The notes beneath the pieces were generated by a model. It made no database searches. It was not told where the DNA came from and worked only from the letters and a program-made list of their open reading frames with translations. Both the position numbers and the translations under genes were made by a program. 39,299 nt of DNA from Akkermansia muciniphila. Its GTDB lineage: Bacteria > Verrucomicrobiota > Verrucomicrobiia > Limisphaerales > UBA9464. Where the stretch lies: positions 1 through 39,299 of the forward strand of contig CAMDGV010000039.1 of NCBI GenBank assembly GCA_945898055.1. Direction: 5' to 3'. Below, in pieces: positions 2,786-28,081 of this stretch; position 1 is the stretch's first letter; every line of letters begins with the position of its first letter.

Positions 2786-2834
2786 CCTCGCCCTTTTTAT
2801 TGCCCGACTCATAATCATGACATCCGTTCACCAG

Positions 2835-4046
2835 CAGTTTAATCTCGGTGCGACCGTCGAGCATCAGGCCTCGACATTTCCGCGCAGTTGGTCCCACGGC
2901 GCCTCCTGGCAACCGCTCGCTCGAAACGATTTTCTCCAGAGTGATTTTTACGGTGAGTCCCTTCAAGGATCGTTCGTCCGCAAGGTGCTCGAAGATCTCA
3001 CGCCGCACCAACCCTTTGGCTATCAGACGAGCTTCTCCGTCGAACTTCGCGACCACAACGGCAAGAAATCCGAGTCGATCCTCGAAGCCAAAGCCAGTGC
3101 TGCCATCGCCGACGCCTCGGCGTTCATCTTTATCGACGCGATTTTGACCCTGTTGGCACGGGGAATCCGCACGCCCACGAACGTATGGCGGACCTAGCGG
3201 TGTACTACATCCTAGATTTCAAGTTCGACATGAAACAGAACAGCAAGTTGGCAATCCAGTGGATAAAAGTTGGCGGGAGGCCCGAGACTAAGTTTGACAT
3301 AATGAAAAACGGCAAACCCATCCCGCAAGCCGACACCGAAGCGGGCACGCACACCGACAGTTCTATGCTGGCCGCGCACTGTCTCATTGCCAAGCATCTG
3401 CTGTTCGGTGTCATCACGAAGAAGTCCCTCGCCACCAAACTGACGCGCGCGCAAGTGCTCGTTCTCTCCAACGTTCATTTCATGGATGCCGAGGAAGTCG
3501 GCACCATCCGCGACTGGGGGCATTCGGGCGGCGCGCTCTACGCTCGCGGCGGCACATCGCTCGTGAACCAACGCGGCCAGTTGCAGCCGGATTTCCTGCT
3601 GGCGGACGTCTTCGGCGTGTCCATTGCCAAGCCCGACGGGAGCGAACGCCAGCATTACATTGCGCCCACGTCAACTGACCGAGAACGCTTTCCTGGCTGG
3701 GACGCCAAATACCCGGCCTATATACGCGGCCCCGGCATGGAAGTGTGCGCCCGATCCGGTACGACGGCGCTCGCGACCACGACGATGCCCTGGCCTCCGT
3801 CCGCCCCGCGCGAATTCTTAAGCATCCACCGCAATCCACCGCAATCCACCGCAATCCACCGCAATCCGCCGTGGACGCCGACGGAGCAGCCCGAAGTTGT
3901 GCTGAATACCATCGGCAAAGGCCGCGGTATTTACTGCGCTCCTGCTCAATGGCAACGCACTGAAGTTCCGAGCATGCACCGGCGTAGCCACCTTCACAGC
4001 GCCGTGCCTAGAGTCGCCGTTAATGTGCGAACAAAACTTAGTCTGA
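2835..4046 (+). pseudogene. Decayed GHL6-like hydrolase copy
   Basis: This is a broken paralogue of the intact gene at 34563-36779. Shared blocks run in order: ATVEHQ, NDFLQ, SFVRK and SVELRDH (2848-3100); FIFIDAI; then, after a frameshift near 3150, HERM and DLAVYY; VLSNVH, GGTSLVN, HYIAPT and [11 protein letters not shown] (to about 3930); and finally, in a third frame, ALKFR and TFTAP ending at the TGA 4044-4046. Compared with the intact protein it lacks about the first 290 residues, about 20 residues after HERM and about 75 residues after IYCA. A 10-bp tandem repeat has also expanded in it. It follows the prepilin gene directly, so the pair may be a remnant of the same two-gene unit seen at 33.8-36.8 kb. 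Confidence 0.85.
3824..3870. repeat. 10-bp tandem repeat, about 4.5 copies
   Basis: The unit ATCCACCGCA is repeated head to tail four times and then decays. The intact paralogue has a single unit at this place (residues SIHSNPPW), so three extra units (30 bp, in frame) were gained in the decayed copy, probably by replication slippage. Confidence 0.85.
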
Positions 4047-6233: not shown

Positions 6234-8000
6234 TTGAAAGGATTTATACTCCATTTAGTTACTGTGAAGGCCTTATTTGTAACAGCACTCTCGGTTCTGT
6301 TTACAATCATAGCCTTCACACAAACTGCCCACTGTGGTTTGGCGTCCTTAAGAGTGAACCAAGGGGCTGTCCGTGCCAAATGTACGGGTCCTAGCCTGAC
6401 AGCGGGCACAAATTATAATTTATTGTATTGGTTAAAAACTGAACCCGGGGCTCTGGTCGGGGTTAGATTTGCCACTTGGGTTCAAGGAGTTAACCCCGTA
6501 AAATCAGTTATTTACAACTCTGACGATATAGCTGGCGGTTACGCATCAAGCACAGCGTTAGATACTTATTTGAATTACTATTCAGCCATCATTTTTCCTA
6601 ATATAACGTCCAATATTTTCGCGTTCGGCATTGATTGCCGGGCGGTCACGAGTGGTTTTTATCTTAATGATGTTGTCTTGGTGGCCGACGGATCAACCGC
6701 AAATCGGGTGGCGAACCTCGGCTTCGAAACCGCATTTCAATCCCATTTCAAAGGCGATGGTACTGGTTGGTCGAATGCCAACTGGGTGAACCTGAGTTGG
6801 ATGAGTGCATATGCTTGGCAAGTCCACCAGTATGGCAATCCAAACGGGCCAAAAGCCCCCTATATTGAACGTACGCTGGTGCCAAGAGTGCTGCTGCTCC
6901 CCACGGTGGTTTCCTCCACATTGCGCGCGACTGGGACGGGAGTAACGGTTGTGTTTTCCGTGCCGGTCACTGCGTCCACGGCCGCCAATGTGAGCAACTA
7001 CGCCCTCAATAACGGCGGCACAATCAGCGGAGCGAGCATCAACCTTGATGGCACGACGGTGGTGCTGATCACTTCGCCGCTGTCGAATTCTGTAACCAAC
7101 ATTCTGACCACTAACAACGCGCAGGAGGAAACCGGCATTCCGACAATCGCCGTCAACGCTCAGGTCAGGATGACATCCCTCTCTGTTTGGGTTACCGCGC
7201 ACAACGGCGCACCGACCCTACGGGTCGATGACAGCCCGCAGACCGAGCCGGGTTATAGCCATTACGGAGTGGACTGGGGGTACATCACCAATTTTATCCA
7301 ATTTAGAACGCGCCTGTTTGACTTCCACAGCACGGCCAGCGCGTGGGACTGCGGCAACGTGCCGACCACGTCGGACTACTCCAACTTCGACCAGAGTTTC
7401 TGTTTCTCCCGCATATTGTCCGCCAACTCGAATGCCTTGATCATACCGTGCCTCGATATTGGGACGCCCACTTGGTGGCTGACCAACCCTCTTTCAGAAT
7501 GGGAACTCACCGAGAACGGAACCACTGATTACACAAATTCGAACGGCATCCGACCAATAAGCGGTCCGTTTCCCGGTCTGACCTTGACGCTCTGGCGTCA
7601 GGAAATGGGGGATGCCATTGATCGGTTGAACAATCCTATCGAAGCGAGGGGTTGGATGAATCACTTCGCTGGATTCAAGATTTCAGGGTTGATGACCGAG
7701 GAGTGGTATCGCTGGAGCAGTCGGGGCAATTCAGAATTAACTAGCTACAGCACGAACACGGTTAACGCCTTCCACGAATGGCTTAAGAACCATTACAATA
7801 ACGATCTCACTGCGCTGCGGCCCTCTTGGAACTCCCTAGTGGTTACTTTCGAAACAGCCCAAGTGCCCACGGCAGCAATGCGCCGGAACAATTCGGGCAC
7901 CCGCAATTTCCGGAACCCGCAACCCGCAGACCGAACACTACGAGCGGTAGCATTAAATTCTATGGAGCTAGGCAATAGGGACCAAAGGTATGATTCCTAA
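6234..8000 (+). pseudogene. Truncated secreted GH42-like hydrolase with CBM-like domain
   Basis: The frame starts with TTG at 6234; the following signal peptide (KGFILHL..., cut near FTQTAHC) parallels that of the preceding gene. Residues about 35-215 are a fourth copy of the carbohydrate-binding-like repeat (AGGYASS, FGIDC, GFETAFQSH, ANWV.LSW). Residues about 220-315 look like a bacterial Ig-like domain. From about 325 on the sequence matches the intact hydrolase at 23992-26340: TPTWWL against [18 protein letters not shown] against [12 protein letters not shown], then AFHEWLK, SWN, FRNP. Homology stops near 7920, about 300 residues into the catalytic region. The frame then runs as nonsense to 8000, overlapping the next gene by 11 bases. 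The catalytic half that is missing makes activity unlikely, though the binding part could still be secreted. Confidence 0.75.
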
Positions 8001-8772
8001 TCCGCTTCGCAAAAAGCTGCAGGATCGTCAGACCACTTATGGTCTTTTGGTCACGATCGAAAGTCCCAACGTCACCGAACTGGCCGACACGCTGGGCTTC
8101 GATTGGGTCGTCGTCGACATGGAGCACGTGCATTTTAATTACCGCGAAGTGATGGAACATGTGCGCACGGTCCGAGGCTGCGAGACTCCCGTCCTAGGGC
8201 CCGTACCCGAAGTTCAGCAGAGCCCCATTAATCGAGCGTTGGACATCGGGGCGCATGGCGTTTTGTTGCTCCTGGTGCGCAATCGCGCCGACTTGGAGAG
8301 GGGTTTTTGTTTTGGCCGGTATCCCACAAGGGGTGAGCGAGGTGTGGGCGGTGAACGCGCGGTGAAATGGGGATTGGGCTTTGACGAATATCTTGGTTAC
8401 GCAAACGAGGTGTTAATGATCACACCCAGTACCGAAACACGCGAGGCCGCCGAGAGCATTGACGACATCCTTGGTGTCCCCAGCTTGGAAGCCATCTTTT
8501 TTGGCCCGGCTCACCTCTCGGCCACCTACGGGCATCTCGGGCAATGGGAAGGGGCTGGCTTGGCGGAAAAGATTCTGGAGATTCGCGGCAAAGCAGCGGC
8601 CAAAGGCATTGCGTCCGGCGTGATGTCGCGCAGTGTCGAAACTTCACTTTTGCGCCGCGACCAGGGTTTCAACATGAACGCCCTTAGCCCCGTCCTTGAT
8701 CTGATGATTCGCGCGATTCGGGGAAACCTAGAAAAACTTGACCAACTGGTGACTCCGAAAGTTTGGTTTTAA
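7990..8772 (+). CDS. HpcH/HpaI aldolase family protein with altered active site
   Basis: A 260-residue TIM-barrel protein of the family that splits 2-keto-3-deoxy sugar acids or 4-hydroxy-2-oxo acids into pyruvate (or a relative) and an aldehyde. Family landmarks are present: DMEH at 43-46 (catalytic His46), RALDIGAHGV at 82-91, RYP.RG.RGVGG at 110-121, TETREA at 148-153 (metal ligand Glu149) and FFGPAHLS at 170-177. Two key residues differ from E. coli HpaI by gapless alignment: the substrate-binding Arg70 is Pro71 (8200-8202, CCC), and the second metal ligand Asp175 is His175 (8512-8514, CAC). It heads the catabolic operon, 18 bases before the aldehyde dehydrogenase gene that could take its aldehyde product. 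It may be an aldolase with altered chemistry or a losing copy. Confidence 0.85.
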   Translation: MIPNPLRKKLQDRQTTYGLLVTIESPNVTELADTLGFDWVVVDMEHVHFNYREVMEHVRTVRGCETPVLGPVPEVQQSPINRALDIGAHGVLLLLVRNRADLERGFCFGRYPTRGERGVGGERAVKWGLGFDEYLGYANEVLMITPSTETREAAESIDDILGVPSLEAIFFGPAHLSATYGHLGQWEGAGLAEKILEIRGKAAAKGIASGVMSRSVETSLLRRDQGFNMNALSPVLDLMIRAIRGNLEKLDQLVTPKVWF

Positions 8773-8790
8773 CTCAACACTGATAAGCTT

Positions 8791-10230
8791 ATGACCGAGT
8801 ATGGCATGTTAATCAACGGCAAGTGGACGACGACGAGGAAATCCTCTCCGGTTCTGTCGCCGGCCACCGAAGAAACCATTGCGACCGTCCCGATTGCCGA
8901 CGATCGCACCATCAACGCCGCTCTCGAAGCCGCAAAAAAGGCCCAACGAGATTGGGGTCGGCGAACCGGCGTCGAACGCGGCAACGTCCTTCGCAAATGG
9001 GCCGACCTCGTAGACCAAAATCGCGATCGCCTCGCGCGGCTTTTGTCGCAGGAAGAGGGCAAACCGCTCAGCGAAGCTCACGGCGAACTTGATCTCGGCA
9101 ACAGTTGGTTTCGCTACTACGCCGAGTTTGATCGTCGTATCGAGGGCGAGATTCTCGCCGCCGACAAGCCCAATGAGCAGCTCTGGATTTTCCGCCAACC
9201 CGTCGGCGTCGTGGTGGGCATTATTCCGTGGAATTACCCCATGGGCGTCGCGGTGCGCAAAATCGCCCCCGCGCTGATCGCCGGCAACGCCATCGTCCTC
9301 AAACCGCACGAAGACACCCCCTTGTCCGCACTGGAACTCGGCAAGCTTGCCAACGAAGCCGGGGTGCCGCCTGGCGTGGTCAATATCATAACCGGACCGG
9401 GGGAGACCGTCGGCGCCGCGTTGGTGCGTAGTCCGATTCCAGGCCTCATCACGTTCACCGGCAGTGTGGAAACCGGTAAGGCCATTGCCCGCAGCGCCGC
9501 CGACAACGTCACGCTCGTCTCGCTAGAACTCGGGGGCAAAGCGCCCTTTATCGTCATGGACGACTGCAATCTTGAGGAGGCGGTCAAGACCGCCGTGTTC
9601 TCGCGGTTCATGAACTGCGGTCAGGTTTGCATCTGTAACGAACGAACCTACGTCCACAAACGGGTCGCGAAAGAATTCACGGAACGGTTCGTCGCCGAAG
9701 TGCAGAAGCTCAAGGTTGGCAACCCGCTGCAGGCCGGCACGCAAATCGGTCCGAAGGTGAACCGGCAGGAGTTGGAAAAGGTCGAAGGCTACGTCCAGCG
9801 CGCCGTCAAGGCGGGCGCAAAAGTGGCGACCGGCGGCCAGCGCAAGACGGGACGCGGCTTTAGCAAAGGCTACTGGTATGAGCCGACAGTGCTCACCGAT
9901 GTCCGGCAGGATATGGAAATCATGCAGAAAGAAATCTTCGGTCCGGTCGTGCCAATCATGGAGTTCTCCGACTTTGAACAAGGTCTGAGCTATGCCAATG
10001 ATTCGCGCTACGGCCTCGCCGCTTACCTGTTCTCGAACGACGTGCATCGCATCATGCGCGCAATTCGTGACTTGGAGTTTGGTGAACTCTACATCAACCG
10101 CGGTCCGGGCGAATCCGTCCATGGCTTTCACAGCGGTTGGAAACAAAGCGGCACCAACGGAGACGATGGTCGGCACGGACTGGAACATTACCTCCGGAAA
10201 AAAACCGTCTATCTACGATATCAGGGTTGA
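8791..10230 (+). CDS. aldA: Aldehyde dehydrogenase, lactaldehyde/glycolaldehyde type
   Basis: A complete NAD-dependent aldehyde dehydrogenase of 479 residues. PWN at 146-148 and GSVETG at 225-230 bind NAD, Glu246 in LELGGK is the general base and Cys280 in NCGQVC is the nucleophile. The C-terminal run ELYINR, GFHSGWKQSG, DGRHGLEHYL and VYL follows E. coli AldA closely, which oxidises L-lactaldehyde and glycolaldehyde to lactate and glycolate. Its place right behind an aldolase gene (18-bp gap) fits a role in clearing the small aldehyde made by that enzyme. The exact substrate is inferred, not shown. Confidence 0.88.
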   Translation: MTEYGMLINGKWTTTRKSSPVLSPATEETIATVPIADDRTINAALEAAKKAQRDWGRRTGVERGNVLRKWADLVDQNRDRLARLLSQEEGKPLSEAHGELDLGNSWFRYYAEFDRRIEGEILAADKPNEQLWIFRQPVGVVVGIIPWNYPMGVAVRKIAPALIAGNAIVLKPHEDTPLSALELGKLANEAGVPPGVVNIITGPGETVGAALVRSPIPGLITFTGSVETGKAIARSAADNVTLVSLELGGKAPFIVMDDCNLEEAVKTAVFSRFMNCGQVCICNERTYVHKRVAKEFTERFVAEVQKLKVGNPLQAGTQIGPKVNRQELEKVEGYVQRAVKAGAKVATGGQRKTGRGFSKGYWYEPTVLTDVRQDMEIMQKEIFGPVVPIMEFSDFEQGLSYANDSRYGLAAYLFSNDVHRIMRAIRDLEFGELYINRGPGESVHGFHSGWKQSGTNGDDGRHGLEHYLRKKTVYLRYQG

Positions 10231-10246
10231 TGCTGGAATCGATTAC

Positions 10247-11536
10247 ATGAAACAGGGCATTCAAAAAATCCGTTACGGTATCATCGCCGATGATCTGACC
10301 GGTGCGACAGATACTGCAGCTGCCTTCGCCAGCTGTGGCTTCTCCGTCGCGGTTGCGCTTGATCCGCGCCGCCTTCGCTCGCTCACCGCGCAAGTCATCG
10401 TGCTCAGCACTCACAGTCGGAACGAGATGCCAACCAAAGCGCGCCGCAAAGTTAACCGGGCGTGCGCGCAATTGCGGGATGGCGGGTTATCCTTCGTCTA
10501 CAAGAAGCTTGATTCGACAGGGCAAGGCAACATCGTGGCGGAAGTGGAAGCGGCTCGCGACGCGGGCGAATTTGCAGCAGCGCTGGTCTGTCCGGCGAAC
10601 CCGGTTCAGGGCCGAACGATGCGCGGCGGCGTCCTGCGCGTCCGAGACGGCGATTCCGTAAATCTGCTTGAACGATTCCGTGTTCAAGGGCTGACAGAGT
10701 TTAGCTCGATCAGCTCACCGATTTCAGCACTGAAATTGACCCAAGCTACCGAACAAAACCGTCGCTTTATTGTCGCCGATGCGACGAGCGAACGCGACTT
10801 GGCATTCTTGGTCCGCGCCGTCTTGCAGTCCAAGCAGCGGATATTACTCGTCGGTTCGGCCGGCATGGCGGGTGAATTGGCGAAACTGCTGATGGGTAGC
10901 AAGTCTGCCCGCTCGAATCCAGACGGCAAAATGCCCCCGTCACGGGCTGGCAGGGTTGCCCGTTGCAAGACACTCGTCATTGCTGGTTCGAACAACCCGG
11001 TCACCGAACGACAACTGGAGAAACTCATTGGTAAAACGCTCGCCGCATCACTCACGTTGAATCGTCACACGAGGAGAGATGCCACCGCCGCGCTCGCGAG
11101 TGAACGCCACACCATCATCCGTGTGCCGATGCACCATCAACCAGACCACGCGATTCTCCGACTACTCAGCGCACTCACACCCTTGTTTCTCGCAGGTCAC
11201 GTTGACAGCCTTATGCTGGTGGGGGGCGACACCGCTTTGCTCGTTTGTCGCTTCTTGCGCCCACTGGCTATTGCCATCAGCGGCGAGATTGTTCCCGGCC
11301 TCGCGTGGGGAAGATTCATCGGCGGTCTGGCTGATGGTCTGGCCGTTTGCACCAAGCCCGGGGGCTTCGGCAGCGACCAAAGCCTTGTGCGGGCGGTGAA
11401 TTTTCTGGCGAGAGTAACAGCCGCGGTCTCGCTCGGCGAAACTTGTGCTCGGCCTCCTTGCGGCTTCGGCACTTCGCGAAACCATCCGGGCGGACGGCGC
11501 TCTGCCGCTACGAACCACACCAACCGTACCGAGTGA
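10247..11536 (+). CDS. Four-carbon acid sugar kinase (DUF1537)
   Basis: A 429-residue member of the DUF1537 kinases, which phosphorylate C4 acid sugars such as D-threonate, L-threonate or D-erythronate at O4 with ATP. The N-terminal substrate domain opens with IADDLTGATD (13-22). The C-terminal ATP domain shows GSNNPVTERQ and LVGGDTA, followed by PGG. The ATG at 10247 is chosen because it places the conserved first strand (IRYGIIADD) eight residues from the start; the open frame extends further upstream inside the preceding gene. Its last four bases (GTGA) overlap the start of the PdxA-type gene. DUF1537 kinase next to PdxA is the known D-threonate/D-erythronate arrangement (DtnK-PdxA2), which makes dihydroxyacetone phosphate and CO2. 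The residues after about 405 are low-complexity. Confidence 0.88.
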   Translation: MKQGIQKIRYGIIADDLTGATDTAAAFASCGFSVAVALDPRRLRSLTAQVIVLSTHSRNEMPTKARRKVNRACAQLRDGGLSFVYKKLDSTGQGNIVAEVEAARDAGEFAAALVCPANPVQGRTMRGGVLRVRDGDSVNLLERFRVQGLTEFSSISSPISALKLTQATEQNRRFIVADATSERDLAFLVRAVLQSKQRILLVGSAGMAGELAKLLMGSKSARSNPDGKMPPSRAGRVARCKTLVIAGSNNPVTERQLEKLIGKTLAASLTLNRHTRRDATAALASERHTIIRVPMHHQPDHAILRLLSALTPLFLAGHVDSLMLVGGDTALLVCRFLRPLAIAISGEIVPGLAWGRFIGGLADGLAVCTKPGGFGSDQSLVRAVNFLARVTAAVSLGETCARPPCGFGTSRNHPGGRRSAATNHTNRTE

Positions 11537-12498
11537 GCGCTTGCCCCACCATTGCCATCAGCATCGGCGACCCGGCTGGCGTCGGCCCGGAGGTCGCCCT
11601 AAAGGCACTCGCCGACGATGCCGTTCGAACACTCGCAAACTGGATTGTCATCGGCGATCGTGAAGCGCTTACGCTGGTCGAAGCCCAGACCGGCATCCAA
11701 CTTAATTCGCTGGCGCAAGTCACCCTGCAAAGTCTTGGTGCGCTCAAAACCACTCCACCGCTCGGCCAACTTAACGCCGATTGCGGGCGCGCCGCGCTCG
11801 CCTATGTCCGCCGTGCCGCCGAACTTTGTCTGCACGGCGAAGCTGACGCCATGGTTACCGCGCCGTTAAATAAGGAAGCCGTTACGCTGTCGGGTGGAAA
11901 GTTTACCGGCCACACGGAATTCATTGCCGAACTCTGTGGGGTTAAAGAGTCGTGGATGCTCCTAATTAATGAACGACTCCGCGTGCTCCACGTCACCACC
12001 CACTGCTCCATGCGGGAGGCATGTGACCTGAGTGCGGCCCGAGTGCTCAACACGCTCCGCATCGGACGCCAAGCACTCGAGCGGCTTGGACTGACGCGCC
12101 AGCGAATCGCGGTCTGCGGCCTGAACCCGCACGCGGGTGAGCACGGATTGTTCGGATCCGAGGAAATCCGAGTCATTGCGCCCGCCGTCGCTGAGGCGCA
12201 CGCCGACGGTATTGATGCGCACGGTCCATTCTCGGCGGACACTATTTTTCTGCGAACCCTGCGAGGCGAATTTGACCTCGTGCTCGCGATGTATCACGAC
12301 CAGGGCCACATCCCGATGAAATTGCTCGATTTCGACAGGACGGTAAATGTGTCACTCGGTCTGCCCATCCTACGCACCTCGGTGGATCACGGCACGGCGT
12401 TCGATATTGCCGGGCAAAATACAGCGAATGCTGAAAATATGAAGGCTGCGATGCGGCTGGCGGTGACGCTCGCGCAGAACGGGAGGAATCATGCGTAG
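11533..12498 (+). CDS. pdxA: 4-phospho-C4-acid dehydrogenase, PdxA family (PdxA2-like)
   Basis: A 321-residue protein with all PdxA landmarks: [12 protein letters not shown] (9-20), VTAPLNKEA (108-116), GHTEF (126-130), and the three metal-binding histidines His157 (VTTH), His200 (LNPHAGE) and His255 (YHDQG). The GTG at 11533 is the start that fits the family, leaving a four-base GTGA overlap with the kinase gene; an upstream frame extension is spurious. Classical PdxA oxidises 4-phosphohydroxythreonine for vitamin B6. Translational coupling to a DUF1537 kinase instead points to PdxA2, which oxidises and decarboxylates D-threonate or D-erythronate 4-phosphate to dihydroxyacetone phosphate. 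No other B6 gene is nearby. Confidence 0.9.
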
Positions 12499-13501
12499 AA
12501 AAAAGCCGCTTCGGATGGGCGTCATTGGTTGTGGAATGATTGGGGCGCTGCACGCGAATGCGATTCGGGAATCGAGTCATGCCAAACTGGTAGCAGTGTG
12601 CGACATCGACCCCCAACGGGCCACGGCGTTCGTCACGGGTTCCGAGGCAAGAGTTTTCACGAGCTTCGAGAGAATGCTGGCCGACGCGTCGCTGGATGCT
12701 GTCACTATCGCTACGCCCGACCACTTGCATGTGAAGCCGGCATTGGCTGCGTTGCGCTTAGGCGTACACGTTTTTTGCGAAAAGCCACTGGCAGGCACAG
12801 CCGCCGATGCCGCCCGACTCGTTCTCGCCGCGCGCGGAAGCGGCGTGCAACTCGCCGTAAATTACTTGCGCCGCTTCGCCTTTGGTTACCAGAAAGCGAA
12901 GCAACTCTTGCAAGCGGGTCGCATCGGTCATGTGAACAATGCAGTCTTGCATATTTGTGACGGAATTCCCGCGAAGGTCGCCACCCAACCCCACGCATTG
13001 TTGACGTCCCTCCTCTCGCATCACCTCGACCTGCTGCGGTTCCTTTGCGGAGAGATTGTTTTCATCCACGCCCTGTTTCGTGGGCCTTCGTGTGACCTTC
13101 CGCAAGACGTTTCGTTGGGGATACAATTCGCCAGCGGCGCGGTGGGCAGTATCACGGCTGGCTGGCGGGCCGGTCAGACGCGTACGGTGGAGCACCTGCG
13201 ATTGTCCGGCACCAAGGGGGTCGTAACGGTGGACGACGTGCAGCACTCCGTCACGCTCTGGCACACCAGTCCGGATGATGCACACTGTTTTCAGCCGGAT
13301 TATTTTGCGGGGGGGAATCGTTTTTATGACAGCCTCACGGCGCACCTCGAATCGTTCGTTGCCGCGTTGGCGGGGGGTAAGCCGGTGCCGGTAACCGCGG
13401 TGGATGGATTGGAAGGCCTCCGTCTCATTGAAGCCGCTATCAAGTCAAACGCCACTGGCCGACGCATCAAACTAACGCCGATGAATTCTTTAGAACCATG
13501 A
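12491..13501 (+). CDS. Gfo/Idh/MocA family oxidoreductase
   Basis: A 336-residue NAD(P)-dependent sugar or inositol dehydrogenase. The Rossmann motif is [13 protein letters not shown] (10-22), an Asp at the end of strand 2 (CDID) suggests NAD, and the catalytic EKP lysine lies in FCEKPLA (95-101). The C-terminal domain has the usual beta-sheet fold ([17 protein letters not shown]) and a closing [12 protein letters not shown] helix. It overlaps the PdxA-type gene by eight bases and the next gene by four (ATGA). Family members oxidise ring hydroxyls of sugars, inositols and inosamines, including MocA of rhizopine catabolism; the substrate cannot be read from sequence alone. Confidence 0.9.
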
Positions 13502-14154
13502 AATATAACATTATTGACCTCTCTCATCCCATCAGCACCGCGACCCCACCGTGGCCGGGTTGGCCGTCCGTCGAGACGAAGTTTCTCGACCGTGCGAGCT
13601 TGAATACTCCGGAAGAACGCCATGTGAATTCCGGCCGGATTGCCATGAACATTCACACCGGAACGCATCTGGACGCGCCCTTTCATTTCCTGGATGCCGG
13701 CAAAACCATTGATCAGGTGCCGTTGGAGCGAACCTATGGGCCGGCGACGTTGGTCGATCTGCGGAACAAGGGGGCTGGGTCGCACATCACACGCGCCGAC
13801 CTCGAGCAGTGGGCGACCGATTTGTGCCGCACCCGCAAAGCCATCCTGCGCACCGGTTGGGCAGCACGCTGGATGAAACATGATTTCTTTGTCGGGTATC
13901 CCGATATCACTCCCGACGGCGCGCAGTTTCTCGTTGAGTGCGGGGTAGAACTCGTCGGGGTCGAAACGGGTTCGGTGGATTATCATCCGAATGACACGCA
14001 CATCGTCTTACTCGGCAATGACGTGCTAATTCTGGAGGGCCTCACCAACCTCGACCGAATTCCGACCAACGAATTCCTTCTCTCCGCCACACCTTTAAAC
14101 ATTGAGGGCCATGACGGTTCGCCAGTGCGAGCGATGGCCATTTTCAACACCTGA
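13498..14154 (+). CDS. Cyclase-family metal hydrolase (kynurenine formamidase-like)
   Basis: A 218-residue protein of the cyclase family, a metal-dependent hydrolase fold with members that open amides, lactones or cyclic substrates. The motif H-x-GTH-x-D-x-P-x-H is complete at residues 53-63 ([11 protein letters not shown]), and DLSHPIS at 7-13 is the usual start. The later VGVETGSVD and [13 protein letters not shown] blocks are also typical. The ATGA overlap with the dehydrogenase gene suggests coupled translation. After an oxidoreductase that makes a lactone or a ring ketone, a hydrolase of this kind could open the ring; this is inference from gene order. Confidence 0.85.
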
Positions 14155-14157
14155 TTT

Positions 14158-15318
14158 ATGCCAACCATCAACGCTAAAACTCTCACCGACTTTGCGGCCG
14201 CGATTTTCGAGCGCAGCGCTGTGCCCCCCGCAGTCGCACGGCAGGTCGCCGACTCTCTTGTGCAGGCCAATCTAAAGGGGCACGACTCCCACGGCGTCAT
14301 TCGCATCATCGAATATGTCGATTGGGTTGCAAAGGGATGGGTGAATCCCAAAGGCCGCCTCACCGTGGTCCGCGAGCAACCGTGCATCCTCCTGCTGGAT
14401 GGCGATTTTGGTTTCGGTCAGGTCATTGGTCGTGAAGCCACTAATCTTGGCATTGCTAAGGCAAAGAAGGAAGGCGCGTGCATCCTTTCCTTGAAACGCT
14501 CCGGGCATTTGGGGCGCGTGGGTGAATTCATGGAAATGGTGGCGGAAGCCGGATTGGTCTGCTTCTCGTTCACCAACACGCACGGGGGCGGTGTGCTCGT
14601 CGCTCCGCACGGGGGCTGCGAGCGGCGCCTTTCCGCGAATCCACTTGGCGGCGGCGCGCCGATGCCCGACGGGTCGTCGCTCATCATGGATATGTCCACC
14701 TGCACCATTGCCGAGGGAAAAATCAAGGTCGCCCTTGTCAGAGGGGAAGAGTTGCCGCCTCGTGTCATCGTGAACGGATACGGCGAGCCTTCGACTAGTC
14801 CGGAGGAATACTACGCCCAACCGCCCGGCGCATTGCTACCGATGGCAGGGCATAAGGGCTTCGCTCTATCACTTTTCTGCGAGGTCATGGCGGGTGCACT
14901 TACGGGAGCGGGTTGCAGCAAGGCAGGTGTCGAGCGCGTGGCCAACGGGTTCATGGCCTTCCTGCTCGACCCAAGCGTGTTCTGCGGCCCCGATTTTTTC
15001 TTTACCGAGCTTAGCGATCTGGCGCAGTGGGTGAAGTCGAGCCGACTCACCCAGGGCTTCGACGAGATACAACTGCCGGGCGAACCCGAAGCTCGAGCCC
15101 AAGAAAAACATGAAAGTACAGGCGCGGTGATTGACGAGAAGACGTGGAAAAAAATCTGCGAAATCGCCGCAGTTAGACACGTGTCGATTCCCGATCTTGA
15201 GAAGAACGATGAAGGTAAAACCCACGGTATGGCGAAACGTAAGTTGACCAAACGCCCTGCCGCCACGGATGCCAGCGGGCATGAGACCCAAGGAACAAAT
15301 CACCCGTCGCGTCCTTAA
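14158..15318 (+). CDS. Malate/lactate/ureidoglycolate dehydrogenase (LDH2 family)
   Basis: A 386-residue NAD(P)-dependent 2-hydroxy acid dehydrogenase of the LDH2/YiaK family. Landmarks are KGHDSHG (40-46), SGHLGRVGEF (around 115-124, with the active-site histidine), THGGGVLVAP, NPLGGGAP, MDMSTC and GHKGFALSLFCEVMAGALTG. The core is complete by about residue 345. The last 40 residues are an unusual basic, low-complexity tail (AKRKLTKRPAATD...) absent from typical members and may reflect a lost stop codon. It starts 3 bases after the cyclase gene and would reduce or oxidise a 2-keto or 2-hydroxy acid in the same pathway. Confidence 0.85.
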   Translation: MPTINAKTLTDFAAAIFERSAVPPAVARQVADSLVQANLKGHDSHGVIRIIEYVDWVAKGWVNPKGRLTVVREQPCILLLDGDFGFGQVIGREATNLGIAKAKKEGACILSLKRSGHLGRVGEFMEMVAEAGLVCFSFTNTHGGGVLVAPHGGCERRLSANPLGGGAPMPDGSSLIMDMSTCTIAEGKIKVALVRGEELPPRVIVNGYGEPSTSPEEYYAQPPGALLPMAGHKGFALSLFCEVMAGALTGAGCSKAGVERVANGFMAFLLDPSVFCGPDFFFTELSDLAQWVKSSRLTQGFDEIQLPGEPEARAQEKHESTGAVIDEKTWKKICEIAAVRHVSIPDLEKNDEGKTHGMAKRKLTKRPAATDASGHETQGTNHPSRP

Positions 15319-16651: not shown

Positions 16652-17446
16652 ATGACGCCGCTAATTGAACTACGAAACATCTACAAGTTTTTTGGAGGGC
16701 TTTGCGCCACGAACGACGTCTCACTCACCATTGGCAAGGGGGAGGTGATCGGATTGGTCGGCGACAACGCGGCTGGCAAGTCCACGCTGATGAAGATCAT
16801 TGCTGGTGTGCATAAACCGACTTCAGGCGAATACTTGATTGATGGGGAAAAATTTGTCGCCCACAGTCCTCGCTCTGCCCGCAATGCCGGCATTGAGATG
16901 GTTTTCCAGATTCAGGACATGGCGTTGGTGCCGGAGTTGGACGTGGCAGACAACCTGTTTCTGGGCAAGGAACTGTACCGCAAAACGCTCGGACTTAACC
17001 TCAACCTGGTGCTGGACCGTCGGGCGATGCAGGAACGTTCGCGGGTGTTGCTTCACGAACTGGGCATCAATATCCCGGCCGTGACGGAGAAGGTGAAGTA
17101 CTTATCTGGCGGGCAGCAGCAGTCCGTCTCAATTGCGCGCACGGTATTTTTCGACGCCCGTCTGGTCATCCTGGACGAACCGACATCTTCGATCTCCATC
17201 AAGGAGACCCGCAAGGTGCTCGACCTGATTTTGCAACTGAAGGCCAAAGGTATTTCGTCCATCATCGTAAGCCATCGGATGGATGACATTTTTACCACTG
17301 CCGATCGCATTCTCGTGTTGCGTCGCGGCAGAAAAATTGAGGACGTGCGCAAGGAGCACACTTCGATGGACGATATTATCAAGAAGATTATCAACGCGGA
17401 GAAGGAGAGCATGAGTCAAGAAACCCTGAACCAGCCAACGGCATGA
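16652..17446 (+). CDS. Sugar ABC importer, ATP-binding protein
   Basis: A 264-residue ATPase of the ribose/galactose importer class. Walker A is GDNAAGKST (37-45), the signature is LSGGQQQ (151-157), Walker B is LVILDEPTSS (171-180) and the switch histidine is in IIVSHRMDD. It holds one nucleotide-binding domain, whereas RbsA and MglA are fused doubles of about 500 residues, so the importer would use two copies of this subunit. The stop overlaps the first permease gene by four bases (ATGA). Confidence 0.92.
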   Translation: MTPLIELRNIYKFFGGLCATNDVSLTIGKGEVIGLVGDNAAGKSTLMKIIAGVHKPTSGEYLIDGEKFVAHSPRSARNAGIEMVFQIQDMALVPELDVADNLFLGKELYRKTLGLNLNLVLDRRAMQERSRVLLHELGINIPAVTEKVKYLSGGQQQSVSIARTVFFDARLVILDEPTSSISIKETRKVLDLILQLKAKGISSIIVSHRMDDIFTTADRILVLRRGRKIEDVRKEHTSMDDIIKKIINAEKESMSQETLNQPTA

Positions 17447-18411
17447 AGGACGTGAGTAAGCGTTTGGCACAACTATGCCTGAGCCACTCGATCGTGGCTG
17501 TGCTGATCCTCTTAAGCGTGGCCATGGCGCTTTTGAGTGACAAGTTTTTTACCGCGGCCAATTGGGCAAACGTGTTGAACAACCTCGCGGTGCCGGGAAT
17601 CGTGGCGCTGGGTGTGGCGTTGGTGGTCATCGCGGGTGGCATCGATCTTTCCTTTAGTTCCATGCTGGCCGCTTGCGCGGCGCTGGCGGCATGGTTGCAG
17701 CCGCAGAACTTCTGGTTGGCTCTGATTGGCCCCCTAGCGCTCGGTGCCGCGCTGGGGGCGTTCAACGGTTTGCTGGTCGTCAAGTTGGGCGCGAATCCGC
17801 TCATAAGCACGCTGGGCACTCAATGGCTATTTCTAGCCGCACTTTTCATAATTACGGGCGGGGGAATTGTGCAGGGCAACATGGAGGGCCCTTTTCATCT
17901 GATTGCCAATGGCCGGTTGGCGGGCGTGCCGCTACCGATTCTGCTGCTGCTGCTGCTTGCGGCGGCAACCTCGTTCTTGACCACCCAGACCTCGCTGGGA
18001 AAATACATTTATGCTCACGGCTCGAACAATTGTGGTCTGCGATTCGCCGGGGTGAATGCGAATGCAGTTTATCTGAAAACCTTCGTGCTAATGGGGCTGA
18101 TCGTTGGGGTTGCCGGAATTGTGCTCAGTTCGCGCCTAGGCGGCGTACGGCCTACGGAAGGCAACCGTTATCTTATCGTGGTGCTAACTGCAGTGCTACT
18201 CAGCGGGGTGAGTCTGAACGGTGGGGTGGGTTCGCTCTTTCATGTTCTGATCGCGACGGTCGTGCTCGGGGTCATTGACAATGGAATGGTGTTGCTCGCA
18301 GTGGAATACAAATACCAGCAGATGATCAAGGGCTGCGTGTTCATCTTGGCTATTCTCTACAACAACTACACGACCAAACAACTTGCGATGCTCCGCGTCT
18401 CCAAGCGGTGA
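17443..18411 (+). CDS. Sugar ABC importer, permease 1 (RbsC family)
   Basis: A 322-residue, very hydrophobic protein of the RbsC/XylH permease family with about eight to ten membrane helices. The family blocks GIVALGVALVVIAGGIDLSFSS (from about residue 46), GAFNGLLVVKLGANPLISTLGT and the late LLSGVSLNGGVGS are clear. It is flanked by ATGA overlaps on both sides. Together with the second permease it would form the membrane channel. Confidence 0.9.
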   Translation: MKDVSKRLAQLCLSHSIVAVLILLSVAMALLSDKFFTAANWANVLNNLAVPGIVALGVALVVIAGGIDLSFSSMLAACAALAAWLQPQNFWLALIGPLALGAALGAFNGLLVVKLGANPLISTLGTQWLFLAALFIITGGGIVQGNMEGPFHLIANGRLAGVPLPILLLLLLAAATSFLTTQTSLGKYIYAHGSNNCGLRFAGVNANAVYLKTFVLMGLIVGVAGIVLSSRLGGVRPTEGNRYLIVVLTAVLLSGVSLNGGVGSLFHVLIATVVLGVIDNGMVLLAVEYKYQQMIKGCVFILAILYNNYTTKQLAMLRVSKR

Positions 18412-19439
18412 ACAGCAAAACCAACATGCCTAAGGTTACTTTTCAAACTCTACTTTTTCGGGGAAGATTGCCGCTCATTATCGGCGCGCTTTTGCTATTC
18501 ATGGCGTTCAATGATCGCTCCTTTTTCATTCCTGAAAACTTGATCAATATTCTCTCCTACAGTTCGATCAATGGCCTGTTGGCCGTCGGCATGACCTTGC
18601 TCATGATCAGCCGTGAATTCGACATCTCGGTCGGCTCCAACCTTGTCCTCTCAGGCGTCATTGCGGTGCAAGTGGCAAATCACTTCGGTGCTGCCGCCGG
18701 GATTGCGGCCGGAGTCGCCTCGGGCGCGGTGATGGGTCTGATCAACGGTATCCTAGTAGCCAAGGCCAATATCAATTCGTTCATCTCCACCCTGGGGACC
18801 ATGGTCATCTTTCAGGGCGTTGCCTTCGCGTTGACCGATATGAAACCAGTAGCCTGTGACTTGCCTACGTTCCAAAGCTTGGCGGAATGGGAGCTTCTGG
18901 GTCTGCCTGCCCCGATCATCTACTTTCTGAGTGTGGCAATAATTTTATGGCTCGCCCTCAAGTTTACTCGTGTTGGCAAGAGCGCCTACGCCATTGGCGG
19001 AAACATCCAAGGTTGCCGCAATCTCGGTATCAACGTGGACGGCTGGCGGATCGGCTATTTTATCATCTGCGGTGCCTGCGCCTCGTTCGCCGGGGTTATC
19101 CTAGCCAGCCGGCTCGGCGCGGCCTCTGCCACGTTCGGAGAAAACGTGTCGATGGTCGTCATCGCCGCGATCGTGCTAGGAGGCGTGCCGCTGTCGGGCG
19201 GCGCGGGCAGCCTGCCGGGCGTAATCGGGGCCATTCTTTTGCTGGGACTGATTGATAGTATGACCGTTTATCTCAACGTCTTCGGCTACTATCAGAAACT
19301 TTTCTGGGCGCTGCTCCTCATCGGTGTGGTGGTGTTCGACGTAGTTTGTGCCCGACGCGAAAACCGCCGACTTGAGCTTGCCGAACTCCTGCGGCTCCAG
19401 CGCGAACCATTGAGAGACAACACCGAGGTCACTTCATGA
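18408..19439 (+). CDS. Sugar ABC importer, permease 2 (RbsC family)
   Basis: A 343-residue RbsC-family permease, paralogous to its upstream neighbour. Recognisable blocks are LLAVGMTLLMISREFDISVGS, LINGILVAKANINSFISTLGT and LGGVPLSGGAGSLPGVIGA. It overlaps the genes before and after it by four bases. Two different permeases imply a heterodimeric channel, while RbsC and MglC work as homodimers. The C-terminal cytoplasmic tail is arginine- and glutamate-rich. Confidence 0.9.
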   Translation: MNSKTNMPKVTFQTLLFRGRLPLIIGALLLFMAFNDRSFFIPENLINILSYSSINGLLAVGMTLLMISREFDISVGSNLVLSGVIAVQVANHFGAAAGIAAGVASGAVMGLINGILVAKANINSFISTLGTMVIFQGVAFALTDMKPVACDLPTFQSLAEWELLGLPAPIIYFLSVAIILWLALKFTRVGKSAYAIGGNIQGCRNLGINVDGWRIGYFIICGACASFAGVILASRLGAASATFGENVSMVVIAAIVLGGVPLSGGAGSLPGVIGAILLLGLIDSMTVYLNVFGYYQKLFWALLLIGVVVFDVVCARRENRRLELAELLRLQREPLRDNTEVTS

Positions 19440-20416
19440 TATTCCACGAAATTCTGCAGCGCGTCACCCTAGCACTTGCCGGCATCCTGATTATTACGGG
19501 CTGCGACTCACGCAGTCCGTCAACCGAAAAGCCCAAAATGACATTCGGGGTTTCGATGTCTGCCTTCACGTCACCCTACGCGTCGGCGGCCGTAAGGGAG
19601 TTCAAACGCTTCACGCAGGAGCAAGGTTATGGCCTCATCATCTTGGATGCGCAGAATGACATTCAGCGCGAAGCCTTTAATATCGACAACCTCATGGCTA
19701 AGCGAGTTGATGCCATCTTGGTCAACGCCGTGGACGCCAAAGGCAGCAGGGCTTCGTTGCGCAAGGCGGCGCGGCATGGCTTCATCGTGACCTGCTTCAA
19801 CGCAGCCGTGGACGATCCGGAAGTGCTCGGGGTCCGCGCCTACAGTGGACCGCAGTACTACGAGCAGGCCGTCAGTGCAGCGAAGGTGGTTCTTGCCAGA
19901 CGACCCAAAGGAAATGTGGTCATCATCACGGGCGACCCGGGGTACGACGCAGCCATCAAGCGCGAAAAGGGATTTACTGACACAATCGCCCGAGAGGCGG
20001 CCGGCACCATTTTGTTGGATATTCAGACAGCCAATTGGATGCGCGAGAACGCCCAGCGGGTGATGTCCGACTTCATTACGAAGTACGGGCGAAAGATCGA
20101 TATCGTTTACAGTCAAGATGACAATATGACCGCTGGTGCAGTGAACGCGCTAAAAGCCGCCGGCTACACGCTGGCAGACAAGCCCCTTGTGGTCAGTATC
20201 GGGGCCATGGCCGATGGTCTGCCACTGGTGGCGGAAGGGTGGATTGACTCCACCATTATGCAATCACCCAAGGAGGAAGCGCAATTGGCCATTGAGGTTG
20301 CGATAAAAAACATTCGGAAAGAGCAAGCTGAGCGCTATCGAAATTACTTTCTCGGAACCGCGCCGGTGACCAAGACCAACGTTCAGGAGATCTTGGCCAA
20401 GCACTTGTGGGATTGA
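19436..20416 (+). CDS. Sugar ABC importer, substrate-binding lipoprotein
   Basis: A 326-residue protein of the RbsB-type (Peripla_BP_4) binding proteins. The lipoprotein signal ends in LIITGC with Cys23 as lipid site. The mature part has two alpha/beta lobes: TFGVSMS, DAQND, VDAILVNAVD in the first; GNVVIITGDPGYDAAIKREKGF and YSQDDNMTAGAVNAL in the second. The D.N at the third site is typical for sugar or polyol ligands. It would catch the substrate in the periplasm for the two permeases. The same class includes MocB, the rhizopine-binding protein; the ligand here is not determined. Confidence 0.9.
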   Translation: MIFHEILQRVTLALAGILIITGCDSRSPSTEKPKMTFGVSMSAFTSPYASAAVREFKRFTQEQGYGLIILDAQNDIQREAFNIDNLMAKRVDAILVNAVDAKGSRASLRKAARHGFIVTCFNAAVDDPEVLGVRAYSGPQYYEQAVSAAKVVLARRPKGNVVIITGDPGYDAAIKREKGFTDTIAREAAGTILLDIQTANWMRENAQRVMSDFITKYGRKIDIVYSQDDNMTAGAVNALKAAGYTLADKPLVVSIGAMADGLPLVAEGWIDSTIMQSPKEEAQLAIEVAIKNIRKEQAERYRNYFLGTAPVTKTNVQEILAKHLWD

Positions 20417-20452
20417 AACACAACAATCGCTGAACCGCTCAATCGCAACGCA

Positions 20453-22735
20453 ATGCCTACGGTCAACACACTACGACTCTCTGACTACAGCCTCGTTGGC
20501 AAAGATACCGCCTTGGTAATCAAAAAGGGATTGGCCGAGGCAACGTGGTATACCTCACCCGTACCCAAGGAGAAAATGCGCGAACTACTGCGGCGGCGCG
20601 ATTGGCCCGCCATTCGCGACACTGTGATTTGGTTTGCTTTGATCATCGGTTCGGGTTGGACGGGTTACGAATTGTGGCAGGCCGGAAGCTGGTGGGCAAT
20701 CGTACCGTTCCTGATCTACGGTGTACTTTACGCCTCCACTTCGGATTCGCGCTGGCATGAATCCAGCCACGGCACTGCCTTCAAAACGGATTGGATGAAC
20801 CACGCGCTCTACGAGATCGCCTCGTTCATGGTAATGCGTGAATCCACCGTCTGGCGCTGGAGTCACACCCGCCACCACAGCGATACCATCATTGTCGGCC
20901 GCGATCCTGAGATCGCCGTTCCCCGGCCACCCGACCTCTTGAATCTCATTCTGAGTTTCTTCGCCGTTAAAGCGATTCCAAAATATTTTCGGCGCGTACT
21001 GTTGCATTGCACCAGACGGCTGACCGTGGAAGAAAAAACCTTCATACCAAAATCCGAAAATGGGAAAGTATTTATGCGCGCTCGCATTTGCCTCCTGATT
21101 TATTTGGGCGTCGTTGGCCTCGCGATTTACTACCGCAACATTCTCCCACTCATGTTCGTCGGGCTTCCTAACCTTTACGGCTCCTGGCTCATGCCGCTCT
21201 ATGGCTATACCCAGCACGCAGGTCTGGCCGAAAATGTTCTCGACCATCGGCTCAACTGCCGAACGGTCTATATGAACTTCATCAACCAATATCTGTACTG
21301 GAACATGAATTACCATGTGGAGCACCATATGTTCCCGCTCGTGCCTTATCACAACCTCCCGAGACTGCACGAAATCGCTAAGACGGACATGCCGGCGCCC
21401 TATACCAGCATCTGGGACGCTTGGCGTGAAATTGTTCCCGCCGTGCTACGGCAGGTGAAAGACCCGGCATATTGCATCAGACGAAAGCTACCTACGCCAA
21501 CGATTCGCACCGACGCTCCACCCACCGCGCACATCTTCACCGCCAAAGGCCAGTCGGTGAACGGCTGGGTTGAAATTTGCGTCAGTGAGTTCCTGAAGAC
21601 GGAGGACGTTATTCGCTTTGATCACCAGCAAAAAACCTACGCCATCTATCGAACGATCGAGGGAACGCTGTATGCCACTGACGGCATCTGTACTCACGGA
21701 AATACCCATCTGGCGGACGGGCTAGTGAAAGGGAATCTCATCGAGTGTCCCAAGCACAACGGACGTTTCGACCTCACCGACGGATCCCCGCAACGCCAGC
21801 CCGCTTGTTTCGCACTAAAGACTTTCAAGGCCCGCGAGCACGAAGGTAAAATCTTTCTCGACCTTACTTCTGCAGGTGGTTGCGGGCTCTCCCAGCCTCC
21901 CACCCGCTACAAGTTCCGCGTCGTGAGCAACGAGAATGTCGCCACCTTCATTAAGGAACTCGTGCTGGAAGCCGAGCATGGCTCGCCATTGCCGACTTAC
22001 CAGCCCGGTGATTACCTGCAATTCGACATCCCGGCTTATGGGGAAATCTCGTTCCGTGAAATCGCAATCAAACCGCCGTTCGCCGAAGTCTGGAGGGCAC
22101 AACACGTCTTCGATTTCCGTTCCAAAAATGGCACGCCCGTTCGCCGGAACTATTCGGTTGCCTCCAACCCTGCCACGGACCGACAGCTTTGTTTTAACAT
22201 CCGCATCGCCACACCCCCGCGCGGCCAGGATTGTCTGGCCGGCACCGGTTCCGCCTACGTGCATCGACTGAAATCCGGCGACAAGGTCACCGCGATTGGG
22301 CCTTTCGGCAGTTTTCACCTCAAACCCGGAACCTCGGAATTGGTTTATGTGGGCGGCGGGGCGGGCATGGCCCCGCTCCGCTCGCACATTTCGCACCTGT
22401 TTGAAACATTGCACACCGAACGCCGCGTCAGCTTTTGGTATGGCGCTCGCTCACGGCAGGAGATTTTTTACCAAGACTATTTCGAGGGGTTGGCCCGGCA
22501 ATTCCCCAACTTCAGATTCTATCTCGCGTTGTCCGAGCCGCAGCCAGAGGACCTCTGGACGGGCGCGACCGGATTCATTCACGAAGTGATCAAGAAAGAG
22601 TATCTGACCGATCACGCGGATGCTGCCGGTATTGAATACTACCTGTGCGGCCCGCCGCTGATGATCAAGGCCTGCACCGGGATGCTCGCTGAGTTTGGTG
22701 TCTCAGCCGACCACATTTCCTATGATGAATTCTAA
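20453..22735 (+). CDS. Fusion of MocD-like desaturase fold, Rieske ferredoxin and NqrF-like reductase
   Basis: A 760-residue three-part protein in one uninterrupted frame. Residues about 50-340 are a membrane fatty-acid-desaturase-like di-iron domain with its histidine boxes HESSH (102-106), HTRHH (138-142) and HVEHH (288-292), and hydrophobic segments near 58-95 and 212-245. Residues about 365-470 are a Rieske domain with Cys413-x-His415 and Cys432-x2-His435. Residues about 485-760 match the flavin/NADH module of Na+-NQR subunit F: RNYSVA (565-570) for FAD, GGGAGMAP (634-641) for NAD(P), then FWYGARS, EPQPED, TGFIHE and the terminal YYLCGPP. The plant-type 2Fe-2S domain of NqrF is absent and the Rieske domain takes its place. 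In rhizobia, separate mocD, mocE and mocF products (oxygenase, ferredoxin, reductase) demethylate 3-O-methyl-scyllo-inosamine. This protein would be a self-sufficient NADH-driven oxygenase. Confidence 0.9.
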   Translation: MPTVNTLRLSDYSLVGKDTALVIKKGLAEATWYTSPVPKEKMRELLRRRDWPAIRDTVIWFALIIGSGWTGYELWQAGSWWAIVPFLIYGVLYASTSDSRWHESSHGTAFKTDWMNHALYEIASFMVMRESTVWRWSHTRHHSDTIIVGRDPEIAVPRPPDLLNLILSFFAVKAIPKYFRRVLLHCTRRLTVEEKTFIPKSENGKVFMRARICLLIYLGVVGLAIYYRNILPLMFVGLPNLYGSWLMPLYGYTQHAGLAENVLDHRLNCRTVYMNFINQYLYWNMNYHVEHHMFPLVPYHNLPRLHEIAKTDMPAPYTSIWDAWREIVPAVLRQVKDPAYCIRRKLPTPTIRTDAPPTAHIFTAKGQSVNGWVEICVSEFLKTEDVIRFDHQQKTYAIYRTIEGTLYATDGICTHGNTHLADGLVKGNLIECPKHNGRFDLTDGSPQRQPACFALKTFKAREHEGKIFLDLTSAGGCGLSQPPTRYKFRVVSNENVATFIKELVLEAEHGSPLPTYQPGDYLQFDIPAYGEISFREIAIKPPFAEVWRAQHVFDFRSKNGTPVRRNYSVASNPATDRQLCFNIRIATPPRGQDCLAGTGSAYVHRLKSGDKVTAIGPFGSFHLKPGTSELVYVGGGAGMAPLRSHISHLFETLHTERRVSFWYGARSRQEIFYQDYFEGLARQFPNFRFYLALSEPQPEDLWTGATGFIHEVIKKEYLTDHADAAGIEYYLCGPPLMIKACTGMLAEFGVSADHISYDEF

Positions 22736-26340: not shown

Positions 26341-26455
26341 ACCTGTTTACACTCGGTTCCTGATACCACCTTTGCCGCCCGTCACTACGGGTAGACCGTC
26401 CACTGCCATATCCCTCCGACTTATGAATGACGTCTGAAAATTCAGCCGGCTACGG

Positions 26456-27649
26456 ATGCATCCAAACTATGAACGACTTGCAGATATGACGTGTTCCATT
26501 CATGGGCGAGGTCGGGCGCCCTCTGGAATCACCGAGCTTGACATCACCTTGGTGCGTCTGTGCGAACTTGCCCGTCGTGGGCAAGTCATCGGTGCCTTCG
26601 ATGCGACGCGCCGCACCCTCGATGCGATTCGCTCTGGTGATCGCGTGGCCGCCGCCCACCTCTTGCGTGCCGATGAACTTTTGGCCGACCTTGCGGATCG
26701 ATTCATGGACACCTTGGGTCACGACGTGCGGGCGCTCGTTGACCTTCCACCACTCTTGCACGCATGTGGCCCGGACGGCGGATGCACTCGACCTCGCCTG
26801 CGAGTTGGAAGGTTCGCCCGGGTTGTCCCGCATCCGCGACCTGTTCGTGCGGCAAATGGAGGCCATCACGGCGGGCAAAGGCATTCATCTCACGCAGAAC
26901 ACCGGTGCGCCCGAGCAAGGCAGTTTCTCTCTGCCGAGCCTTGGCATTACGATCGTGCCTCTGGTGTATGGGGCCCCCCATTCGTGGAACCCAGCCTGGC
27001 TCCATGGCGAACGTTCCGATGTGCCCTATCACCTCCATCGCGAAGGTGTAGAAATTCACCTCGGTTACAACCCTATGCACGGCTATACCGTGCTCGGTGC
27101 CGTCAAAGCGGATTGACCCAAAGCTATGCGATGCCAATTCCGTCCAACGCCCGCTACGGCTACACCAACATTGGCCACTATGTTCCGTTTATCTTCGGCT
27201 CGCTTACCTGGGGCGGCTCTGGGGTGTTCTTCGATGTCAAGCCGCAGCCGATAGAACTCGGCCGACTCGACACCGTTCCCGTGCTCAGCAACCAACTTAA
27301 CAGCACCGTCCTACTTGAGCGTGAATTTGAAAAGGCCGCGCAGAAATTCACATGCGTGCGGTACGCCATCATTCCCGCGGAGAGGACTGACGACGATGGG
27401 GTCGGAGGTTTGGAGCTGTCCGTCGCTCGCGTGACTTCCCACGGTCTGGAATTATGCACAGAGGGTTTCTGTGCTGACTCCGTCGTCCGCGGCCGAGGCG
27501 TCATCTCTATGGTTGGCGAAGAACGCGATCTAGCACCCCACGATCATTTCGGCATTCCGGTCGGCGTGAAAGCAACAATCCACCAAACTGGCACTGGCCC
27601 ACTGGTACTGCTTGACGCTGTGCTGAAGCCGGCGGCGAGCCGATTCTAA
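26456..27649 (+). pseudogene. Two-cupin protein with two compensating frameshifts
   Basis: The coding signal begins in the frame of ATG 26456 (helical stretch ATRRTLDAIRSGDRVAAAHLL). It moves to another frame near 26760 (LACELEGSPGLSRIRDLF..., SLPSLGITIVPLVYGAPHSW, VPYHLHREGVEIHLGY) and returns to the first frame near 27113 (NARYGYTNIGHYVPFIFGSL to the TAA at 27649). Net length stays a multiple of three. HLHREGVEIHLG and HDHFGIPVGVKATIH look like two cupin metal sites. I do not recognise a named family. Such bicupins often act as sugar isomerases or oxygenases. The shifts may be mutations or indel errors in the sequence. Confidence 0.55.
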
Positions 27650-27683: not shown

Positions 27684-28081
27684 GTGAAGACCCTAAAAAA
27701 CAATACCAACTACCCAGCCGGAACTATAAATCATCCCATCTTCCGCTCGCTCGACCGCCTCGCCATAGTCGTGTCCGACACCGAGGAGGCGCTGATAATC
27801 TGGCGCGATCGGGTTGGGCTGACCGTACTCTATAGTGAAGAAGTTGACCTAGGCACTATCGGCCTCACACACCTCGATTTGGGTAATACGCAACGACAAC
27901 TTGTTCAACCACTCACGCCCGAGCACCCGATCCAGGCATGGCTCGCGAAGAACGGCTTCGGCTTGCGCAGCACGGCCGGCCCGTCGTGCCGGCGATCCAT
28001 CAGGGCACGCAGGGCAATCATACCCTGTTTCTTGGCCAGAGCGCCACGCACGGTGTGCAAGTCGAAGTTCCCGAAAAATGA
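27684..28081 (+). pseudogene. Glyoxalase/VOC-family protein with internal deletion
   Basis: The frame opening at GTG 27684 gives a typical first VOC module: LDRLAIVVSDTEEALIIWRDRVGL, then THLDLGNTQRQLVQPLTPEHPI.AWLA. The expected second half starts with an H-H-x-C strand but is missing. After about 27950 the last strands appear in another frame (RPVVPAIHQGTQGNHTLFLG, ATHGVQVEVPE) and end at TGA 28079-28081. The protein has lost its middle and one metal-binding strand. Intact relatives are epimerases, lyases or dioxygenases. Confidence 0.65.

Follow-up and report, generated by a model that had tools for sequence, protein, structure and literature searches.

The window, i.e., the whole stretch of 39,299 nucleotides that was analysed, carries a gene for an HpcH/HpaI-type class II pyruvate aldolase which, with a probability of about 0.8, is no longer under purifying selection, is decaying by missense substitution and has ceased to be functional. 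The gene is best read as part of a module that is being lost. Its features and those of its neighbours are provided in Table 1. The predicted protein matched PF03328 with 61.6 bits (cut-off, 25) versus 134.3 bits for the orthologue L066:14703-15476, and no second PF03328 match above the cut-off was found in the window genome, which is 95% complete; one match of 20.6 bits fell below it.

Table 1. Features of the window around the aldolase gene and of the broken genes on the same contig.
Feature	Position	Strand	Remarks
HpcH/HpaI-family aldolase gene, 260 aa, probably degenerate	7990..8772	+	PF03328 match
Pro71 (codon CCC), replacing Arg70 of HpaI	8200..8202	+	Arg in 75/75 other aligned homologues
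Codons 147-149, Ser-Thr-Glu	8428..8436	+	Glu149 (metal ligand, from 8434) kept; 147 and 148 changed
His175 (codon CAC), replacing the metal ligand Asp175	8512..8514	+	Asp in 75/75 others
Aldehyde dehydrogenase (ALDH), intact	8791..10230	+	90% identical to orthologue
D-threonate-kinase-like kinase, start inferred	10253..11536	+	Pfam SBD_N, NBD_C; NCBIfam D-threonate kinase below cut-off
PdxA-type dehydrogenase, start inferred	11485..12498	+	PF04166
Gfo/Idh/MocA oxidoreductase	12491..13501	+	
Cyclase-family protein	13498..14154	+	
Malate/L-lactate dehydrogenase family protein (Ldh_2)	14158..15318	+	
Broken 415-aa gene copy, middle third in another frame	26423..27649	+	Three separate matches that do not share a single frame
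Broken VOC (glyoxalase-like) gene, about 50 bases lost and frame changed	27702..28069	+	

The codons and the homologue alignment agreed with an earlier note on this DNA as to Pro71, His175 and the preserved His46 (8125) and Glu149; Glu45, Asp43 and Asp85 are retained as well. Glu is found at position 149 in 75/75 homologues, and 73/75 have Gln, Ile, Met or Leu at 147. Each of the two replacements had been described as a single G-to-C step at the first codon base. This is accurate for GAC to CAC, but in CGC to CCC the second base is the one that differs. Moreover, a single step per codon is sufficient only if the ancestor had CGC and GAC, as the G158 homologue does, whereas the three nearest orthologues have CGG and GAT. 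What had been overlooked is that R71P and D175H are two among many changes at conserved places.

Asp84 of HpaI is catalytic, and we take His46 and Asp85 of the window protein to be the counterparts of His45 and Asp84 (HpaI numbering), both thus being present. Glu149 is kept, while the equivalents of Arg70 and Asp175 are absent. According to PMC8560999, Glu151, Asp177, pyruvate and waters coordinate the metal of A. baumannii HpaI, Arg72 contacts the substrate, and Arg70 and His45 are important in the E. coli enzyme. Since the equivalents of Arg70 and Asp175 are missing, the window protein most likely lacks aldolase activity. The suggestion that the enzyme may be inactive is supported: two residues of known role, according to the same paper (PMC8560999), are both gone, together with further conserved ones.

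The protein resembles the HpaI enzymes (E. coli-type, PDB 4b5s and 2v5j; A. baumannii, PDB 7et8) in fold, length, Glu149 and the His45 and Asp84 equivalents, and differs from them in the replaced Arg70 and Asp175. It scored 117.1 bits against the HpaI equivalog TIGR02311, under the cut-off of 368.8, as any distant homologue would. The comparison of its structural model with known structures gave Z scores of 33.8 to 4b5s, over 249 residues, and 33.6 to 7et8, at about 26% identity. The top match was the R70A mutant of HpaI (PDB 4b5w; Z 34.1), which is tied with the wild type (33.8). This mutant lost the same Arg in the laboratory and by a single designed change, as opposed to many in the window; no published activity value for it was found in the literature search.

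Homologues were sought in the window's genome and in 58 related ones; of these 59 genomes, 25 had some aldolase homologue, the own one included. When 320 genomes of the order were searched at E ≤ 1e-45, a match was obtained in 26, again with the own genome included, which amounts to 26 places besides the window: three in genus g5 (66–67% identity), one in G158 (57%) and 22 at about 36–42%, one of these 22 in G022, a genome that also has a near copy. Within the window's genus, the 18 further genomes gave no match at this threshold; one of them, G016, has a distant homologue (31%). The alignment comprised the window and 75 homologues. L031-L033 were left out because they were regarded as identical to the genes L002-L004, and so were L021, L025 and L065, which are fragments, and those matches of the 59-genome search to which no locus had been assigned. 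The earlier note had proposed to compare close homologues at both sites, allowing that this copy would be simply damaged if they all had the canonical residues. Arg71 and Asp175 were canonical in all 26 other places of the order and in 75/75 aligned homologues, so that neither Pro71 nor His175 occurs in any of the 75, the three nearest orthologues included. The two changes together were also considered as the mark of a subfamily, which was rejected given the Arg and Asp of 75/75 aligned homologues.

Seven of the 22 distant homologues in the order are about 550 aa long (L006, L007, L075, L079, L081, L084, and L086). L007, the only long homologue scanned with Pfam, is an aldolase-cupin fusion in which the cupin forms the C-terminal part. 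At the E-values used, the aldolase, kinase, cyclase and Ldh_2 genes have close counterparts in g5 and in 0/18 other genomes of the window's genus. Such patchy occurrence may reflect lateral gain or repeated loss.

Relative to the orthologue, the window protein has an excess of private changes at conserved sites. Among 25 invariant or nearly invariant columns of the alignment, the window breaks five (R71P, P94L, P113T, G165S, and D175H), a number exceeded in one row only, and 47/76 rows break none; L018 breaks six, one more than the window, and keeps the Arg and the Asp. Some of the window's residues recur in homologues (Thr113 in 2/75, Leu20 in 2/75 and Ser233 in 8/75). At 31 sites the window departs from a residue shared by the orthologue and the G158 homologue, among them W20L, G47V, V70G, R71P, P94L, I145T, L147S, I148T, G165S, D175H, I230N, G233S, and D235V. 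In a relative-rate count at 111 sites invariant in six outgroup homologues, 19 private changes fell to the window and 3 to the orthologue (binomial p ~0.0009), and both differed at a further 24 of these sites. The result was 13 versus 2 at 85 sites with 22 outgroups, and 8 versus 1 at 44 sites conserved at ≥90% with 12 distant outgroups. Only ALDH and PdxA, each with six outgroup copies having loci, served as controls, the kinase, Ldh_2 and cyclase being unusable with one, none and one outgroup copy, respectively. The same count gave 4 versus 3 at 148 sites for ALDH and 0 versus 1 at 82 sites for PdxA. Expressed as ratios, 19:3 against the 4:4 of ALDH plus PdxA gives p = 0.06; per site, 19/111 against 4/230 gives p = 4e-7. 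With G158 as the outgroup the totals of private changes were equal (31 for the window and 29, or 31 and 27 on alignment A1). Therefore, the difference there is one of kind and not of number.

In this regard, the mean BLOSUM62 score of the window's private changes was −0.65 (n = 31), against −0.47 for random missense changes in the orthologue's gene, +0.67 for the orthologue's private changes (n = 27) and +0.27 for those of the G158 homologue (n = 52), with 254/260 sites used. Rank tests of the window against the orthologue and against G158 gave p = 0.003 and 0.01, respectively. The more conserved half of the sites takes 23/31 of the window's changes, versus 14/27 of the orthologue's (p = 0.10) and 19/52 of those of G158 (p = 0.001). 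Given scores like those of random missense and the bias to conserved sites, the window's changes have therefore accumulated without the filtering seen in its relatives. The pairwise codon-model dN/dS of the aldolase against the orthologue (0.027) is unreliable and uninformative because dS is saturated (8.0). A counterpoint to decay comes from a comparison of four-fold and third-position sites, in which third-position identity to the orthologue was 0.43, below that of the nine other genes compared whole (0.49–0.59). This could mean a split older than that of the neighbours or a loss of codon-level constraint. In a 14-row tree the end branch of the window measured 0.45 versus about 0.17–0.19 for the orthologues, with weakly supported placement (bootstrap 69–71). 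A 35-row tree gave an end branch of 0.33 and no definite order within the group of the window, g5 and G158.

The genes that follow the aldolase are shared with its nearest relatives. The g5 orthologues (L002, L003, and L004) have the same downstream cluster of ALDH, kinase, PdxA, Gfo/Idh, cyclase and Ldh_2, and differ from the window in keeping Arg71 and Asp175 and in having an intact 415-aa gene next to the aldolase. The g5 contig G034:C51 begins with an AraC regulator, a GHL6-type hydrolase and other genes, followed by the intact aldolase, the 415-aa gene and the VOC gene; only then come ALDH, kinase, PdxA, Gfo/Idh, cyclase, Ldh_2 and a further gene (24480-25469), which by its start is a putative binding protein. 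In the window ALDH lies directly 3' of the aldolase, and the kinase, PdxA, Gfo/Idh, cyclase and Ldh_2 follow. The aldolase had been placed first in its operon. This position is unsupported, because an upstream ORF of the same strand (6234-8000) overlaps the aldolase start by 11 bases and no plus-strand promoter-like site was found in 7500-9000 by a scan limited to the sigma-70 type. After Ldh_2, the window has a cytochrome P450 (15345-16607), which had no match among the tested ORFs of G034:C51. Genes of ABC importers lie in 16652-22735, as does a gene for a 760-aa protein that joins fatty-acid desaturase, Rieske and reductase domains.

The two genes that adjoin the intact aldolase on G034:C51 (415-aa and VOC) are both broken in the window, at a distance of about 18 kb from the aldolase. 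In 3/3 g5 genomes the 415-aa gene is intact and neighbours the aldolase; the VOC gene was examined on G034:C51 only. The frameshifts of the 415-aa copy, which make its dN/dS meaningless, could be recent or assembly errors, because the shifted part is still well conserved. This copy had no Pfam match in the window, and the orthologue had a weak cupin match below the cut-off. Since a BLASTP comparison of the 415-aa gene with the cupin part of the fused aldolase L007 gave no match (best E 0.51), it is gene order that speaks for a functional link between the 415-aa gene and the aldolase. The order of the locus differs from that of g5, and several broken pieces are present. A GHL6-type hydrolase is intact at 34563-36779 (−), with about 73% identity to the g5 orthologue, and a second GHL6-type copy upstream of the aldolase (2814-3940, +) is frameshifted and partial. 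An AraC-regulator fragment (31283-30988, −) lies in two frames, and an intact AraC copy is found at 36835-37815 (−).

With its private radical changes at conserved sites and the broken genes on the same contig, the aldolase resembles other bacterial genes decaying by missense. It differs in having no stop codon, frameshift or truncation yet, the frame being open over 260 codons and gapless against the orthologue over 258. This intact length had been taken as an argument against simple decay. For 16, 25, and 37 neutral missense hits, the stop codons expected are 0.7, 1.1, and 1.6, respectively (probability of none, 0.50, 0.34, and 0.20). Because only 0.7–1.6 stops are expected, the open frame is modest counter-evidence to decay. 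If indels are frequent, the missing frameshifts weigh more than the missing stops: at assumed rates of one indel per 20, 10, and 5 substitutions, the probability of no frameshift is 0.32, 0.10, and 0.01 for 16 hits, and 0.07, 0.005, and <0.0001 for 37 hits. The argument from length accordingly keeps a modest value, which becomes telling only with frequent indels, and the open frame is compatible with a retained protein without being decisive for one.

Such a protein would be a pseudoenzyme that has lost catalysis and keeps its fold for another role, e.g., by serving as a structural partner or by binding a ligand and regulating the enzymes that the operon encodes. Besides a frame without indels, which neutral decay would hardly leave if these were frequent, several features are consistent with it: a purine-rich AGGGA sequence lies 8 bases 5' of the ATG, the stop codon is only 18 bases before the start of the next gene, and AlphaFold2 predicts a confident barrel (mean pLDDT 93.9) which matches HpaI with the Z scores of 33.8–34.1 given above. 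However, AlphaFold2 is no measure of stability, and such a model is no evidence of activity. The private changes strike predicted strands (I145T, I148T, and I230N) and conserved Pro and Gly residues (P94L and G165S), they are as radical as random missense, and the two genes that adjoin the aldolase in a relative are broken too. We therefore consider it unlikely that a dead HpaI-family barrel has been kept in this tetronate-type sugar-acid cluster, e.g., as a ligand-binding or assembly partner. Among titles in the literature on pseudoenzymes and HpcH aldolases, no degenerate HpaI was the subject of a paper in the matches listed.

The second possibility raised in the earlier note, a different metal or substrate, found no support, and inactivity is the better of its two readings. 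An active enzyme of altered chemistry would hold another metal by His175 and Glu149 and use another group in place of Arg70. His can bind metals, and Glu149, His46 and Asp85 are kept. Nevertheless, the substrate Arg and a metal ligand are lost together, by changes that none of the 75 homologues has and among private changes that resemble random missense; residues 94, 147, 148, and 233-235 are changed too, and no compensating residue pattern was seen. This makes altered chemistry very improbable. A sequencing or assembly error is a similarly slight prospect: the sequence comes from a single draft assembly of 136 contigs in which the 415-aa frameshifts, with their well conserved shifted part, could be errors, but about 30 private substitutions without an indel inside the aldolase are not a usual error, ALDH and PdxA show no excess on the same contig, and the absence of a stretch of about 50 bases from VOC is not a base-calling error.

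Under decay by missense, the reading that we prefer, the aldolase would have come to lack purifying selection. Its product has already lost the Arg that binds the substrate, one of the pair of metal ligands that the protein supplies, and conserved Pro and Gly residues at several places. Such a protein would be unable to cleave or form 4-hydroxy-2-oxo acids. The gene order of the window would be the derived one, and the aldolase, 415-aa and VOC genes may once have served one pathway branch that the lineage has given up. That the frame has stayed open may be due to the low number of stops expected up to now, or to the disturbance that a stop would cause in the downstream genes.

By profile search the gene is annotated as an HpcH/HpaI aldolase, but pathway reconstructions for this genome should not assume that it is active. 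It is a case of a gene that seems to lose its function with its frame open, on a contig where its two neighbours from a relative's locus are broken altogether. Most likely, it is an ordinary instance of a gene wearing out.
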